A DNA stretch of 64,000 nucleotides from Halobellus litoreus (GTDB lineage: Archaea > Halobacteriota > Halobacteria > Halobacteriales > Haloferacaceae). Positions 3,647 to 40,393 of the stretch are shown here, one piece after another. Numbering within the stretch: position 1 is the first letter of the stretch; the number at the start of each line of letters is the position of its first letter. The stretch lies in assembly GCF_024464595.1 (NCBI RefSeq), contig NZ_JANHAW010000001.1, positions 1,071,083 to 1,135,082 of the forward strand, in the 5' to 3' direction. Position numbers and translations under genes: made by a program. Under the pieces are notes generated by a model. The model was given only the letters and a program-made list of their open reading frames with translations, ran no database searches and had not been told where the DNA came from.

Positions 3647-4939
3647 CTATTCGACGACGAGGCTCGTCCGCTCGTCGACGGCCTCCGCCTCCTCGAAGTC
3701 GCCGCCGCCCAGCAGGCCGCGGGCCGCCTTCTTCCCCCACTCGACGGCCGGCTGCGTGAACGTCGAAACCGCCGCGAGCTCGCCGTACAGGACGCACGCG
3801 GCTTCCATCTCGTAGAGCAGCGAGCCGAGGCTGTACTCGTCGACGGCGTCGATCTCGACGCGGATCGCCGGGACGCCCGACTCGACGAGGCTGGCCTCCG
3901 TCGCCTCGAACTCGGCGTCGAGCAGGTCGCCGAGCGAGGACCCGCCGAGGTACGACAGCCCGTCGAGGTCGGTCTCGGGGATCGGCCGGTCCGAGTAGTT
4001 GCGCGGCCGAACGAGCGTCACGAGTTTGTCGCGGGGGCCGGCCCGGTACAGTTGCAACTGCGAGTGCTGATCCGTGGCGCCGAGCGCCCGAGCGGGCGTC
4101 TGGCCGAGGCCGTCCTTCCCGAGGCTCTCCGCCCAGAGCTGCGCGAACCACTCGGCGAACGTCTCCAGGCGCTCGGCGTACGGCATCATCGCGTTCGTGA
4201 GCGCGCCCCGGCCCGCGAGCGCGTACGTCGTCGCGCCGTAGGCGTACGCCGGCGTCTCGAACAGCGATCCGGAGAGGCCGTCGGCGGCGTCCGCCGCGCC
4301 CGTTCGGATCGCCTCCAGGTCGTGGCCCTGGATCGCCGCCACCGCCAGGCCGACCGTCGAGAGCGCCGAGAACCGGCCGGGGACGCCGTCCGGGACCGAC
4401 AGCGAGGGGAGATCGTGCGTCGTCGCGAGCGACCTGAGGTTCCCGGACTCGCCGGTCGTCACGAACGTCCGCTCGGTCCAGTCGACGCCGGCGTCGGTCA
4501 TCGCCTCGCGGACGACGAGGAAGTTCGCGAGCGTCTCCGCCGTCGTCCCCGACCGGGAGACGACGTTGACGACTGTCCGGTCGAGCGGGAGCGAGTCGAG
4601 CAGTCGCGAGACGTGCGCGGGATCGACGTTGTCGAGGAAGTACGCCTCGGGGTCGTCGGGGCCGGCGAGGGCGTCGGCGAACGTCGCCGCACCGAGGGCG
4701 CTCCCGCCGATGCCGACCGTGAGCACCGCCTCCGCGTCCTCGAACGGAGCGACCGCGGCGCGGATCGCGTCCAGATCGACCGTGGAGGGGAGGTTCAGCG
4801 CCTCGTAGCCGTGTTCGTGAGCGTCGCGGCCGGCTTCGATCCGCTCGTGAGCGGCCGCTATCTGGTCGTCCAGCCGCTCCAGCGACTCCCGGGAGACGCC
4901 GGGCGTCGCGTCGAGTGAACTGCCGAGATCGACGTGCAT
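3647..4939 (-). CDS. pgi: Glucose-6-phosphate isomerase
   Basis: This cytosolic 430-residue enzyme interconverts glucose-6-phosphate and fructose-6-phosphate. It has two sugar-isomerase folds: VGIGGSALG at about 75-83, SRSGTTAET at 128-136 (phosphate-binding SIS motif), ATDQHSQLQLY with a catalytic-type His, and the C-terminal family signature QPAVEWGKKA at about 396-405. The length matches the shorter PGI form of haloarchaea and Gram-positive bacteria. It starts at ATG 4939-4937, since MHVDLGSSLDA matches the family start. It stands alone and faces the structured RNA copy A tail to tail. Confidence 0.96.
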   Translation of the reverse strand: MHVDLGSSLDATPGVSRESLERLDDQIAAAHERIEAGRDAHEHGYEALNLPSTVDLDAIRAAVAPFEDAEAVLTVGIGGSALGAATFADALAGPDDPEAYFLDNVDPAHVSRLLDSLPLDRTVVNVVSRSGTTAETLANFLVVREAMTDAGVDWTERTFVTTGESGNLRSLATTHDLPSLSVPDGVPGRFSALSTVGLAVAAIQGHDLEAIRTGAADAADGLSGSLFETPAYAYGATTYALAGRGALTNAMMPYAERLETFAEWFAQLWAESLGKDGLGQTPARALGATDQHSQLQLYRAGPRDKLVTLVRPRNYSDRPIPETDLDGLSYLGGSSLGDLLDAEFEATEASLVESGVPAIRVEIDAVDEYSLGSLLYEMEAACVLYGELAAVSTFTQPAVEWGKKAARGLLGGGDFEEAEAVDERTSLVVE

Positions 4940-5058
4940 ACCTCGCTAACGACGGTCCGCGACGAAAAAGCGGTCGGTCTATGGATCGAGGTGCGCAGAC
5001 CCGAGGCCCACAGCCAGCGACCGGTTCGTTCAAACCGTCTCGCGTCCAACTCCAATCG

Positions 5059-5592
5059 ATGGCATCCGGCTACGACGGCGTCTTCGGCGCGTTCCCGTAC
5101 GCGTTCCGCTCCAGCGAGTCGCGGCTGTTCAAACTGTACGTCGTGGCGAGCGCGCTCGCCATCGGACTCATCGCGCTGTTCGTCGGCATCGCGGTCGTCG
5201 TGCTGATCGGTCAGACGGCCGCCGTGCAGGGCGGCTCGCTCACGCTGTCGCGTGCGTTCTACATCGTTGTCGGACTGCTGGTCGTGTTGCCGGCGATCGC
5301 GCCGGTCCTGATCGTCGCCCGTCGCCGTCGACGGGAGGTGGCGTCCTCGTCGCGTCACGAGGCGGCGCTCGCGGCCGCCGGGTTCGTCTTCCTCCTCTCG
5401 CTGTATCTCGGCCTGGTCGCGTCGATGCCGGAGACGTTCGTGCTCGACGGAGAGACGGTGACGCGCCCGCAACCGAGCGGCCTCCTCGGACCGCTGATCG
5501 CGGGCTTGTACGCGATCCCGCCCCTGTTCTCGTGGACAGTTCCGCTCGTCGGAGCGCTGCTGGTCGGCCTGGCGCACCGGCTCTTCCGGTGA
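5059..5592 (+). CDS. Small integral membrane protein of unknown function
   Basis: The 177-residue protein starts at ATG 5059 (MASGYDGVFGAFPYAFRSS). The frame stays open further upstream, but that part is not membrane-like and overlaps the region upstream of pgi. Four hydrophobic segments are visible at about residues 28-50, 63-85, 98-118 and 140-172, separated by short charged loops such as RRRRREVASSSRHE. There are no catalytic motifs. The gene lies divergently from pgi and upstream of a conserved acidic protein and secFD. The short N-terminal FGAFPYAFRSSESR stretch looks like a conserved haloarchaeal family, but I cannot name it. Confidence 0.78.
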   Translation: MASGYDGVFGAFPYAFRSSESRLFKLYVVASALAIGLIALFVGIAVVVLIGQTAAVQGGSLTLSRAFYIVVGLLVVLPAIAPVLIVARRRRREVASSSRHEAALAAAGFVFLLSLYLGLVASMPETFVLDGETVTRPQPSGLLGPLIAGLYAIPPLFSWTVPLVGALLVGLAHRLFR

Positions 5593-17095: not shown

Positions 17096-17169
17096 GACGG
17101 GCCGCAGGAGCGCTGCGAGGTCGTTGTGGGGGACATCGGCGCCGGCCGTTCGAATCCGGTTCGGAAGCG

Positions 17170-17177
17170 TTAAAAGA
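17170..17177 (+). promoter_or_regulatory. TATA-like box of tRNA-Pro
   Basis: GTTAAAAG is centred about 28 nt before the first base of the tRNA, the expected archaeal distance. Confidence 0.55.
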
Positions 17178-17201
17178 ACGAGCGGCGACTGTTGAGATGC
17201 G

Positions 17202-17274
17202 GGCCGGTGGGGTAGCTTGGTATCCTTCGGCCTTCGGGTGGCCGTAACCGCAGTTCGAATCTGCGCCGGCCCAT
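17202..17274 (+). tRNA. tRNA-Pro (anticodon CGG)
   Basis: A complete 73-nt cloverleaf: acceptor stem GGGCCGG/CCGGCCC, anticodon stem CGGCC/GGCCG with loop TTCGGGT giving anticodon CGG (reads CCG), T stem CGCAG/CTGCG with loop TTCGAAT, and discriminator A. No CCA is encoded. A copy of its 3' part lies 139 bp downstream. Confidence 0.95.
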
Positions 17275-17281
17275 TTCTGCC

Positions 17282-17327
17282 CGCGTTTCACACTACTGCG
17301 AGCGAAGCGAGCAGTCTGAAACGCGGA
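17282..17327. repeat. Perfect 10-bp inverted repeat (stem-loop) just behind tRNA-Pro
   Basis: CCGCGTTTCA at 17282-17291 is the exact inverse complement of TGAAACGCGG at 17318-17327. The 26-nt loop holds an inner CTGC/GCAG pair and GAGCGAAGCGAGCAGTC. It begins 7 nt after the tRNA and may help 3'-end formation. A very similar stem-loop follows tRNA-Arg at 40272-40315. Confidence 0.8.
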
Positions 17328-17392
17328 CGGAAGTCGTCAAGCGGATTCGAGCCAGTCAGTCGCGCGCAGCGAAGCGAGCACGTCTGACGCGG

Positions 17393-17450
17393 TTCGACAT
17401 CTGCGCCGGCCCACTTCTCCCGCATTCCGCACGACTACGAGCGAAGCGAC
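17393..17450 (+). repeat. Diverged direct repeat of the tRNA-Pro 3' end and its flank (att-like scar)
   Basis: This 58-nt stretch repeats 17254-17312. It holds the T-loop GTTCGA, ATCTGCGCCGGCCCA (3' end of tRNA-Pro) and the beginning of the stem-loop flank with GAGCGAAGCGA, with roughly a dozen differences. A truncated second tRNA 3' end downstream of an intact tRNA gene is the classic mark left by site-specific integration. No integrase gene is seen between the copies, which are only 139 bp apart start to start. Confidence 0.75.
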
Positions 17451-17471
17451 CGTACGTGAACCGTCCGGAGA

Positions 17472-17813
17472 TCACAACACTGCAGCGACGATCACGGCCC
17501 CGTTCCACACCGTGATGAGGAAGCCGAGTGCACACAATCCGAGCGGGACGCCGAGGTTGTGTGGTTCGGGAACGAGTCGATAGAGCCCGTAGAACCCACA
17601 GATGACGGCCAGTTTGAGCGGGACGATCAGCACCAGACCGTGAGCGTTGATGAGCCAGGCGGCGACCGGACTGGCCTCTACGATCGTCTGCAGTTGGAGA
17701 CCGACGAGCGTGGTGACGGTATCACCGACGAGAAAGAACGCGATGGCACCGTACCACCACAGCCGCGTGTGTGCTTCGAGAATCTCGACGGACGAATCGA
17801 AATCCGAGAGCAT
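17472..17813 (-). CDS. Small membrane protein, DUF5658-like
   Basis: The likely protein of 113 residues begins MLSDFDSSVEILEAHTRLWWYG, with three hydrophobic segments. AIAFFLVGDTVTTLVGLQL followed by EASPVAAWLI resembles the haloarchaeal DUF5658 pattern (D-TT--GL ... E-P) as I remember it. The frame extends upstream to 17873, but those 20 residues (MATIFVRLQTDSPERRPSKT) look less family-like, so the start is uncertain. Codon use and GC are slightly less extreme than in the neighbours. It sits directly beside the duplicated tRNA-Pro end and could have arrived by integration there. Confidence 0.7.
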   Translation of the reverse strand: MLSDFDSSVEILEAHTRLWWYGAIAFFLVGDTVTTLVGLQLQTIVEASPVAAWLINAHGLVLIVPLKLAVICGFYGLYRLVPEPHNLGVPLGLCALGFLITVWNGAVIVAAVL

Positions 17814-17952
17814 AGTCTTGGAAGGCCGTCTTTCGGGGCTGTCGGTCTGAAGGCGAACGAAGATGGTCGCCAATTTCCGACCGTGAAAGTGTATTCTCAG
17901 CGACGAGTACTAAGCATTGGGATCGGGTACCGAAACTGCGGACCGAGTGCGG

Positions 17953-19044
17953 CTACGACGAGAGGAGATACACCACGAGGTACGCGACGGCGGAAAGGGT
18001 GAGTGTCGTCAGGCCGGTTAGCGTCCCGATGGTGGCTCCGAAACGGTGTCGGCCCCAACCCAGCGACCCCGAGGATCCAGACGTGGGGGGAGATCGGCCG
18101 TTCGCACGTCCGGCCCAGAGACCGACAGCGACCGCCAACGGCACGATAGTGAATCCGAGCCAGTGGGCGTCGGTGATCGTCGGTCTCGGGAGGACGAAGA
18201 CCGCGACCCCATAGGAGAGACCCGCCGCTGATCGGACGCCGATCACGTCCCGAAGGCCACTTAGTCCGCCATCGATGCCGACGAACTCGCCCGCACCGAG
18301 TCGTGACGCGACGGCGATCCCGAACCACACAACCGCGAGTTCGACGAACAGGACCGCGAGGATCTCGACCGTCGGATCAGTCGCGAGGCTGACTCGCTCG
18401 GTGAACAACGGCGGACCGACCGGTGAGAGCATCGGCGGTGGAACGGCCAGGAAGACGTCGCCGAACGGATGCGTGAGAAATCCGGCACCTGCCGCTACGG
18501 CCAGTGACGCGGTCGAAGCGCTCGTCCAGCGACCGACCAGAGCGCCGGCGACACCGACGGCCGAGAGGTAGGCGGCGGCCACGGTCGCGGCAGTCCTGTC
18601 GAGACTCTGCCAGAATGCCGGGAGTAGAACCGCAATGCCGACCGCAGCGGCGAGCGCGGCGACCACCGTTCCGAGAGCGTTTCGCGCGTGGACCGAGAGA
18701 ACGGGCGAGGACGCCGAACTTCGGAGAACGGACCGTGAGTCCGCCCTGACGAGCGCAGCGGCTGCGGCGAAGACGAGCGTCGCGACGACACCGACGGGAA
18801 GTGGGTGCGTGACCACCCGGTGGACGCCGTTGGCGACCCCCCAGAACGGTTCCCACCCGAACGGGGTCCCGGTACCGACGGCGACCGCGTAGGTCGCCGC
18901 CGCGTAGACGACGTCGAGGTCGGGGAGCAGGCTTGCGAGCGCTGCGACCCCGCCGAGGATCAGTGCGGTACGGTCGTCGGTACCGACCCGCCGAGCCCCC
19001 CAGCCGACGAGAGCGAACGCGAGGAACTCGTGGCCGACGAACAT
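17953..19044 (-). CDS. Membrane-bound metal-dependent hydrolase (DUF457/YdjM-like)
   Basis: The 363-residue protein has eight or more hydrophobic segments. The N-terminus MFVGHEFLAFALVGWGARR with LASLLPDLDVVY and later NGVHRVVTHPLPVG gives the His/Asp pattern of the YdjM/DUF457 family, described as membrane-bound metal-dependent hydrolases. LTHPFGDVFLAVPPPMLSP further on repeats the H/D pattern. The exact substrate is unknown. It lies downstream of tRNA-Pro and its duplicated end, on the strand opposite to the tRNA. Confidence 0.85.
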   Translation of the reverse strand: MFVGHEFLAFALVGWGARRVGTDDRTALILGGVAALASLLPDLDVVYAAATYAVAVGTGTPFGWEPFWGVANGVHRVVTHPLPVGVVATLVFAAAAALVRADSRSVLRSSASSPVLSVHARNALGTVVAALAAAVGIAVLLPAFWQSLDRTAATVAAAYLSAVGVAGALVGRWTSASTASLAVAAGAGFLTHPFGDVFLAVPPPMLSPVGPPLFTERVSLATDPTVEILAVLFVELAVVWFGIAVASRLGAGEFVGIDGGLSGLRDVIGVRSAAGLSYGVAVFVLPRPTITDAHWLGFTIVPLAVAVGLWAGRANGRSPPTSGSSGSLGWGRHRFGATIGTLTGLTTLTLSAVAYLVVYLLSS

Positions 19045-40197: not shown

Positions 40198-40221
40198 GCG
40201 TCCTGACGAAGATTTGAACTC
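40198..40221 (-). repeat. Direct repeat of the tRNA-Arg 3' end (att-like scar)
   Basis: This 24-bp segment matches 40320-40343 at 23 of 24 positions. It reproduces the T loop, T stem and acceptor 3' half of the neighbouring tRNA-Arg plus its discriminator base. It lies 122 bp beyond the tRNA 3' end, on the side where an integrated element would be. Confidence 0.78.
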
Positions 40222-40271
40222 ACTCGCAAATCACAGATTTGCTCGCTGCTCAAACCTCCGGTCGGAGTTTC

Positions 40272-40315
40272 GCGAGACGCAGACTCCTCGCTCCGCTCGT
40301 CGTGTTGCGTCTCGC
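40272..40315. repeat. Perfect 10-bp inverted repeat (stem-loop) just behind tRNA-Arg
   Basis: GCGAGACGCA (40272-40281) and TGCGTCTCGC (40306-40315) form a perfect stem. The loop on the tRNA strand contains GAGCGGAGCGAGGAGTC. It starts 5 nt beyond the tRNA 3' end. The element behind tRNA-Pro at 17282-17327 has the same size, position and loop motif. Confidence 0.8.
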
Positions 40316-40320
40316 AGAAG

Positions 40321-40393
40321 CGTCCTGACGGAGATTTGAACTCCGGTCCCTGGCTCCGCAAGCCAAGAGGATAGTCCACTACCCTACCAGGAC
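40321..40393 (-). tRNA. tRNA-Arg (anticodon GCG)
   Basis: A complete 73-nt cloverleaf on the minus strand: acceptor GTCCTGG/TCAGGAC (one G-U), anticodon stem TTGGC/GCCAG with loop TTGCGGA giving anticodon GCG (reads CGC), T stem CGGAG/CTCCG with loop TTCAAAT, and discriminator G. No CCA is encoded and no intron is seen. Confidence 0.94.

Follow-up and report, generated by a model that had tools for sequence, protein, structure and literature searches.

The closest described counterpart of the locus reported here is the RtT repeat of E. coli, from which an RNA is released out of the tyrT transcript. Two further systems are built on short hairpins: integron cassettes carry genes in arrays that gain and lose units, and their attC sites are imperfect hairpins that are folded and bear an R-box consensus; REP/BIME elements are short GC-rich intergenic palindromes. 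Second tRNA 3' ends are also familiar from mobile DNA. Displaced tRNA fragments of genomic islands are duplicate tRNA 3' ends lying downstream of a complete tRNA gene (Islander, PMC4383910), phage Ms6 has its attachment site in the T-loop (PMC1762012), and archaeal integrases favor tRNA genes (PMC8371274).

For comparison, we examined the tyrT/tyrV locus of E. coli K-12, in which tail copies lie 178, 356, and 534 bp downstream of tyrV. As a positive control, the RtT model (RF00391) matched tyrTV four times, i.e., in the units behind tyrV and once between tyrT and tyrV. In addition, we observed that ten bases of the tail recur three times behind tyrV in inverted orientation and without a change.

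The module behind tRNA-Pro(CGG)

The window (the whole stretch of 64,000 nucleotides of Halobellus litoreus DNA that was analyzed) contains three tRNAs at gathering level in an Rfam scan, and ARAGORN together with the sequence places a tRNA-Pro(CGG) gene at 17201..17273 (+), one nucleotide before the start of 17202 given in the original prediction. Its tail (positions 53-73, 17253-17273; GTTCGAATCTGCGCCGGCCCA) recurs at 17392..17413 (+) as GTTCGACATCTGCGCCGGCCCA, with one extra C in the T-loop and zero substitutions; thus, the second tRNA 3' end that had been claimed behind an intact tRNA-Pro is real. Tail and copy are 140 bp apart end to end, and the 118 bp between them (17274-17391) contain hairpins only. 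More specifically, the tRNA is followed by a trailer (17274..17340, +) with an inverted repeat (stem at ~17281-17326, loop with GAGCGAAGCGAG), by this tRNA's T-arm in inverted orientation (17341..17353, +; GCGGATTCGAGCC), evident from the sequence and a model match, and by an imperfect stem core (17354..17391, +) that is apparent in alignment, fold, and sequence and that we assigned by eye to type B of the core types defined below. A second trailer (17414..17465, +) lies behind the tail copy, and its nucleotides 17419-17449 are 84% like 17280-17310, in agreement with the repeated downstream flank reported at the outset. Consistently, covariance model R1, which was built from 25 modules of this genome, matched window positions 17341-17404 (C1:1088423-1088486).

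The trailer hairpin and the inverted T-arm between the copies had been overlooked in that first inspection, as had a tail copy behind a second tRNA gene of the window, tRNA-Arg(GCG) (40321-40393, -, called by ARAGORN). The module at the latter gene (40199..40320, -) has a type C core, and its tail copy (40199-40219), 122 bp downstream, carries 1 mismatch to the gene's own tail. No own-tail copy was found for the tRNA-Asn and tRNA-Met of the window (last 20 nt, ≤4 mismatches, 400 bp downstream). The tRNA-Arg(GCG) module has 44 nt of core and T-loops identical to those of a tRNA-Ser(TGA) module in a congener (L227 of G009). Upstream of tRNA-Pro(CGG) lies an RNA methyltransferase gene (PF04013; 16060-16656, +), which is present in 27 of the 30 tRNA-Pro loci compared below and which we take to be TrmY, acting on T-loop position 54.

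The original prediction took the second 3' end as typical of the integration of a genetic element, which would be a virus or plasmid that had entered at tRNA-Pro and lost its cargo, and the known preference of archaeal integrases for tRNA genes (PMC8371274) is consistent with such an origin. In that prediction, the element was either almost fully lost from between the copies or located to the right, at 17.4 to 19 kb. However, the 118 bp between the copies leave no space for an integrase, and the same plan of interval occurs downstream of 20 further tRNA genes in this genome as well as in other haloarchaea, which argues against a larger element having been lost there. To the right of the module lie a DUF5658 gene (17472-17873) and, further on, a YdjM-type gene (17953-19044). 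Genes of these kinds also stand beside tRNA-Pro in relatives without the copy, and a right-hand element was rejected on the basis of this synteny. DUF5658 flanks the same tRNA in six relatives lacking a tail copy (L004, L009, L014, L018, L019, and L029), with a spacer between tRNA-Pro and DUF5658 of ~70 bp in L014 and L018 versus ~200 bp in the window. By eye, L004 has kept the trailer and inverted arm of a module with the tail copy absent, and L029 has a degenerate tRNA-like stretch and no tail copy. Nor is the arrangement an ancient structure fixed in all relatives, an outcome that the original prediction had considered: among the best-scoring 30 tRNA-Pro(CGG) loci from a search of 60 genomes, 14 have the copy under a loose criterion (≤5 mismatches or one insertion). 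Elsewhere (L008, L023, and L027), a variant occurs at this tRNA in which a longer tRNA stretch is repeated and two hairpins lie just before the T-loop, and in L012 the module behind tRNA-Pro(CGG) contains a short GGCTTTCATTTGTGAC-type repeat.

Two integrase-bearing loci of the same genome illustrate what an inserted element looks like. At C1:762602-766493 (L290), ~3.8 kb separate tRNA-Gly(GCC) from a module with a changed tail copy, and the interval holds an integrase frame with one TAG. Likewise, at C2:1064372-1085148 (L291 ~4373-5574, and L292), tRNA-Val(TAC) and a module whose tail copy is exact lie 20.7 kb apart, with a 335-aa tyrosine integrase just inside the far end of the interval. In congeners, the Val(TAC) module stands 104 bp behind its tRNA (G011) and the Gly(GCC) module 167 bp behind its tRNA (G006), which suggests that in H. 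litoreus elements landed between each tRNA and a pre-existing module. Both cases differ from the tRNA-Pro locus, which has nothing of the kind. Overall, we consider a cargo-less remnant at tRNA-Pro very improbable.

Own-tail modules across the genome and the haloarchaea

Scanning the H. litoreus genome in the same way (last 20 nt, ≤4 mismatches, within 400 bp downstream) revealed an own-tail copy behind 21 of 44 ARAGORN-called tRNA genes, 15 of them exact. The corresponding upstream scan returned 1 of 44, a tandem tRNA-Asp gene, and swapping tails among tRNAs for different amino acids (200 rounds) gave a mean of 0.015 of 44 tRNAs and a maximum of 1, which excludes chance as the source of the copies. 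The two tandem tRNA-Asp genes have one module in common, and the second gene supplies part of the first one's signal. Copies are multiple behind Leu(CAA) (three) and behind Lys(TTT), Arg(TCT), and Arg(CCT) (two each). These counts refer to the 44 genes that ARAGORN called in the fetched loci; Rfam also gave 44 matches, from which tRNA-Pro(CGG) was missing and one of which (C1:548596-548689, L073) was not called by ARAGORN and lies outside the 44.

The modules follow a common plan, in which a trailer hairpin comes first and is followed by the T-arm of the respective tRNA in inverted orientation, an imperfect stem, and the tail copy. They typically span ~95 to 150 bp, and none of the modules read contains a gene, for which their lengths are too short. 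By eye, the cores fall into a few types that recur behind different tRNAs, namely, A (TCAGGGAG..CGACCGTGG), B (CCTGCCAGTCGC..GCACGTCTGGCTTCGG and relatives), and C (CAGCGAG..GAGTGAG).

We then measured how closely the inverted arm follows its tRNA. When the sequence upstream of 171 distinct copies (those with ≤2 mismatches to the tail) was searched freely, the complement of the own T-arm was found with a mean of 2.67 mismatches in 13 positions, as compared to 3.77 for arms of other modules (lowest of 100 rounds, 3.60), 5.54 for shuffled, 5.30 for direct, and 6.24 for reversed controls. An arm with ≤4 mismatches was present at 154 of the 171 copies (reversed control, 5) and absent at 17. Similarly, the 75 copies from loci not chosen by core pattern gave 2.80 for the own arm versus 3.84 for others' (lowest, 3.47), and where T-stems among these 75 differed by at least 2, the own arm fitted better in 60 cases and worse in 14. 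The inverted arm is therefore tRNA-specific.

Pairing of the arm was tabulated for 145 modules with ≤4 arm mismatches, a set that favors the own arm, as arms were taken at the own T-arm's site and copies exceeding 4 mismatches (19 of 175) were dropped; the free search, which kept all 171 distinct copies, is the fair control. Opposite base 57, these modules have A-T in 126, G-C in 13, and other combinations in six; opposite base 59, they have A-T in 123, T-A in 18, and others in four. Of the 145, 81 come from loci found by a pattern fixing most of the T-loop; the remaining 64 show the same picture at base 57 (A-T in 50, G-C in 11, others in three).

The limits of the copies are well defined. 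At positions 49 to 51, outside the copy, identity to the tRNA is 31 to 34% in H. litoreus, 18 to 40% in the named set, 3 to 23% for Leu(CAA), 11 to 44% for Ser(TGA), and 13 to 60% for tRNA-Pro(CGG), and this left-hand drop is sharp in four of the five sets. On the right, identity at position 74 is 62% (H. litoreus), 43% (named set), and 43% (Leu[CAA]), i.e., a sharp limit; in the Ser(TGA) set the drop first occurs at position 77, and the tRNA-Pro set retains 53 to 87% beyond position 73 because its trailer is also repeated. Identity within positions 54 to 73 is partly imposed, since copies were chosen by similarity there, but the drop outside is not. All 20 nt agree with the tRNA in 16 of 29 copies of H. 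litoreus and in 72 of 108 of the named set, and 8 of the 29 have a disturbed T-loop, often with one extra base, next to an intact acceptor part, as does the window copy. The limits of the second 3' end at tRNA-Pro, from T-loop to discriminator, match those expected if recombination takes place within a T-loop and the tRNA is repaired. In this respect, the integration hallmark recognized by the original prediction fits, whereas the lost or right-hand element that it postulated is not supported.

Beyond this genome, the exact type A pattern yielded at least 120 stretches with 129 sites in a collection of one genome per species (84,980 species), and among the 80 matches listed, the titles are haloarchaeal except for one "Euryarchaeota archaeon" MAG. 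A same-strand tRNA lies upstream within 3 kb at 120 of the 129 sites, at a distance of 33 to 386 nt (median, 51), and none of the 129 has only an antisense tRNA. The neighboring tRNA's tail is matched with ≤3 mismatches at 114 of these 120 sites and with >3 at six, and the tRNAs are those for Leu, Ser, Val, Arg, Lys, Trp, Thr, Gly, Met, Ala, Asp, Glu, Ile, and Phe. The other nine sites are without a tRNA, five of them lying ≤450 nt from the upstream edge of their stretch. Modules without a called tRNA in the stretch were seen at ~6700-6900 of L140, preceded by an acceptor end resembling tRNA-Arg(TCT), and at ~950-1100 of L118.

The covariance model located 25 places in the H. litoreus genome with E below 2e-4, of which, by coordinates, 23 are directly behind tRNA genes and two are displaced; most of these had served in building the model, and the tRNA-Arg(GCG) module, used likewise, was missed. 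Matches occurred in 51 of 294 genomes of the phylum, all from the own genome, the same genus, family, or order, and the 20 negatives listed, next to 223 that were not, comprise two genomes of the same order and 18 from beyond it. Within the genus, 12 of 17 genomes have 8 to 25 matches and five (G001, G008, G010, G012, and G016) have none. Since the module-free congeners are GC-poor at the loci measured (one each; 0.49 to 0.50 versus 0.61 to 0.70 in five module-bearing congeners), the absence of modules may follow from base composition; genome completeness is 68% for G001, 72% for G016, and 89% for G010. By the tests used, five of the 17 congeners and roughly half of the tRNAs are without modules, which are thus dispensable. 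Neither the three core patterns in viral contigs nor one module in phage and plasmid collections gave any match, and the literature searched, which excluded most subscription papers, contained no description of these modules.

Both RtT repeats and modules are repeated directly downstream of a tRNA and close with its 3' end, starting within the T-loop. In both, part of the tail also stands in inverted orientation ahead of the tail copy, which for E. coli is an observation of this report. Tandem units with a tRNA 3' end, as in RtT, are likewise found among the modules, tRNA-Pro itself having one extra copy only. In contrast, the repeats of tyrT/tyrV, the sole E. coli locus examined, have a period of 178 bp with CCA within the repeat, whereas the modules stand behind about half of the tRNA genes, are mostly 95 to 150 bp long, and differ in sequence; the RtT model (RF00391) gave no match in window 17100-17600 at E up to 5. 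With the same layout but not the same sequence model, the modules are best classed as a variant of the RtT kind and not as members of the RtT family.

Strand bias, turnover, and concerted change

As predicted RNA, 139 of the 145 modules fold more stably on the tRNA-sense strand, with mean folding energies of -31.6 kcal/mol (sense), -24.6 kcal/mol (antisense), and -16.1 kcal/mol (shuffled). The sense strand is the better one in 93 of 93 type A, 25 of 30 type B, 7 of 7 type C, and 14 of 15 other modules, and in 59 of 64 outside pattern-chosen loci. DNA parameters point in the same direction more weakly (132 of 145). The bias is weakest in type B, the window's type (25 of 30 by RNA, 20 of 30 by DNA parameters). 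The 145 modules are not independent, because the bias partly reflects common core motifs. Departures from pairing in the arm at positions 53 to 55 are G-T in 101 and A-C in 2 cases; at positions 61 to 65, they are about equal (G-T in 59, A-C in 51), and pairing there is therefore not clearly selected. The same strand test is weak in pattern-chosen modules (G-T in 37, A-C in 28). Taken as model calculations, these biases favor a structure of the single-stranded sense sequence, most simply RNA.

Modules are gained and lost between congeners and form tandem arrays. Behind tRNA-Ser(TGA), seven of 17 congeners have one or two copies and ten have none (one of them with a truncated module), and empty and filled sites are comparable because the same gene start follows in several; by eye, trailer and core types are differently combined at these loci. 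Three congeners (G006, G009, and G011) carry modules behind many of the tRNAs that bear them in H. litoreus, with differing numbers and periods; their loci had been selected by a match to model R1 or in a previous search, which makes absences uninformative. At tRNA-Pro(CGG) of G015 (L008), exact tail copies stand at 131, 262, and 393 bp, in a 131-bp tandem unit. The tRNA-Leu(CAA) array is alike in nine Halorubrum loci, whose sequence further out is not, and in one Halorubrum (L153) a C-G pair of the trailer hairpin has become T-A by compensatory change; these nine loci were picked by core pattern, which biases core conservation.

Such findings could also be expected of a functionless tandem duplication of tail and trailer by slippage or unequal exchange, with hairpins accumulating neutrally. 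The 131-bp tandem unit suits this explanation, as do the empty sites and truncated modules among congeners. However, an inverted, tRNA-specific arm and common core types demand more than duplication, and the sense-strand folding bias and the conservation in Halorubrum while outer sequence diverges (at loci picked by core pattern) speak against neutrality as well. We regard neutral duplication as distinctly unlikely.

Copies and tRNAs were further compared across genera in Leu(CAA) arrays with a common downstream hairpin. In L221 and L220, both tRNA and copy read CCCTTCC; the copy carries one further change in L215 and two in L219. Conversely, in L218, L205, and L210, with the same downstream hairpin, both tRNA and copy read CCCTCCC. 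These alignments indicate that tRNA and copy can change together, i.e., in a concerted manner.

Interpretation of the module family

We interpret the locus as belonging to a haloarchaeal family of tRNA-anchored modules, short and gene-less, that would be transcribed in an RtT-like manner and kept uniform by recombination between tails, and we assign this reading a probability of roughly 55%. The module would be transcribed behind its tRNA, and its sense strand would fold into a long hairpin, as happens with RtT at E. coli tyrT. By recombining with the tRNA's genuine tail, the copies would allow modules to be added, removed, and tandemly repeated; this would also hold copy and tRNA to the same sequence, since any copy turned into the tRNA 3' end must work. 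Anatomy, tRNA specificity, limits, polarity, the folding bias between strands, turnover, and concerted change are observed; that modules are transcribed and recombine in this way, and that the cell gains from them, is inferred. As a single locus, the arrangement is ordinary; as a system, it is unusual.

The main rival to this reading is that the modules are folded recombination sites, i.e., cargo-less miniature cassettes whose single-stranded hairpin (inverted T-arm, core, and T-arm) is used, in an attC-like manner, by a tyrosine recombinase for crossing over at the T-loop. Limits at the T-loop and the discriminator, mismatched stems with polarity, and the gain, loss, and tandem repetition of modules are all consistent with this possibility, as are the 44 nt of core plus T-loops identical between tRNA-Arg(GCG) and the tRNA-Ser(TGA) of G009 and the PF00589 integrases found in all 17 congeners. 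The likeness to integron arrays extends to an imperfect hairpin on inverted ends, to units that are gained and lost, and to the start of copy identity at G53-TT. Imperfect hairpin and polarity are thus observed, while similarity to the attC R-box consensus is only loose. On the other hand, no gene was seen in any module, module ends are tRNA-specific, viral contigs, phages, and plasmids gave zero matches, and tails with >3 mismatches to the neighboring tRNA are rare (6 of 120 type A sites). No recombinase is linked to the modules, and tyrosine integrases are uninformative in this regard because module-free congeners have them too. Folded recombination sites are therefore possible, if unlikely. 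A bolder form of this idea, which we hold to be rather doubtful, is a cargo-less integron-like system in which the universal tRNA T-loop serves as the site, sense hairpins as folded attachment sites, and a haloarchaeal recombinase swaps these hairpins at G53; if true, arrays of spare tRNA tails would stand behind about half of the tRNA genes.

With REP/BIME and other intergenic palindromes the modules share short GC-rich hairpins, often with GAGCGAAGCGAG-type loops, but they are tied to tRNA tails, and PF01797 was unmatched in the five module-bearing congeners G003, G004, G006, G009, and G013. An IS200/605-type transposase (PF01797) was rejected as a mover, since its distribution is the opposite of that needed, with 10 to 17 matches in each of the five module-free congeners. 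Like island tRNA fragments, the modules repeat a tRNA 3' end behind the complete gene, but they are without integrase and cargo and follow a recurring hairpin plan at many tRNAs.

Returning to our favored reading of a transcribed, tail-recombining module family, the modules open the little-understood E. coli RtT repeats to comparative study, as strand bias, tRNA specificity, and concerted change are testable in haloarchaea with modules behind about half of their tRNA genes, next to congeners in which none was found. As tRNA genes are classic landing sites of mobile DNA, a second 3' end is easily misread as the border of an island; in haloarchaea, such a reading would often be wrong.
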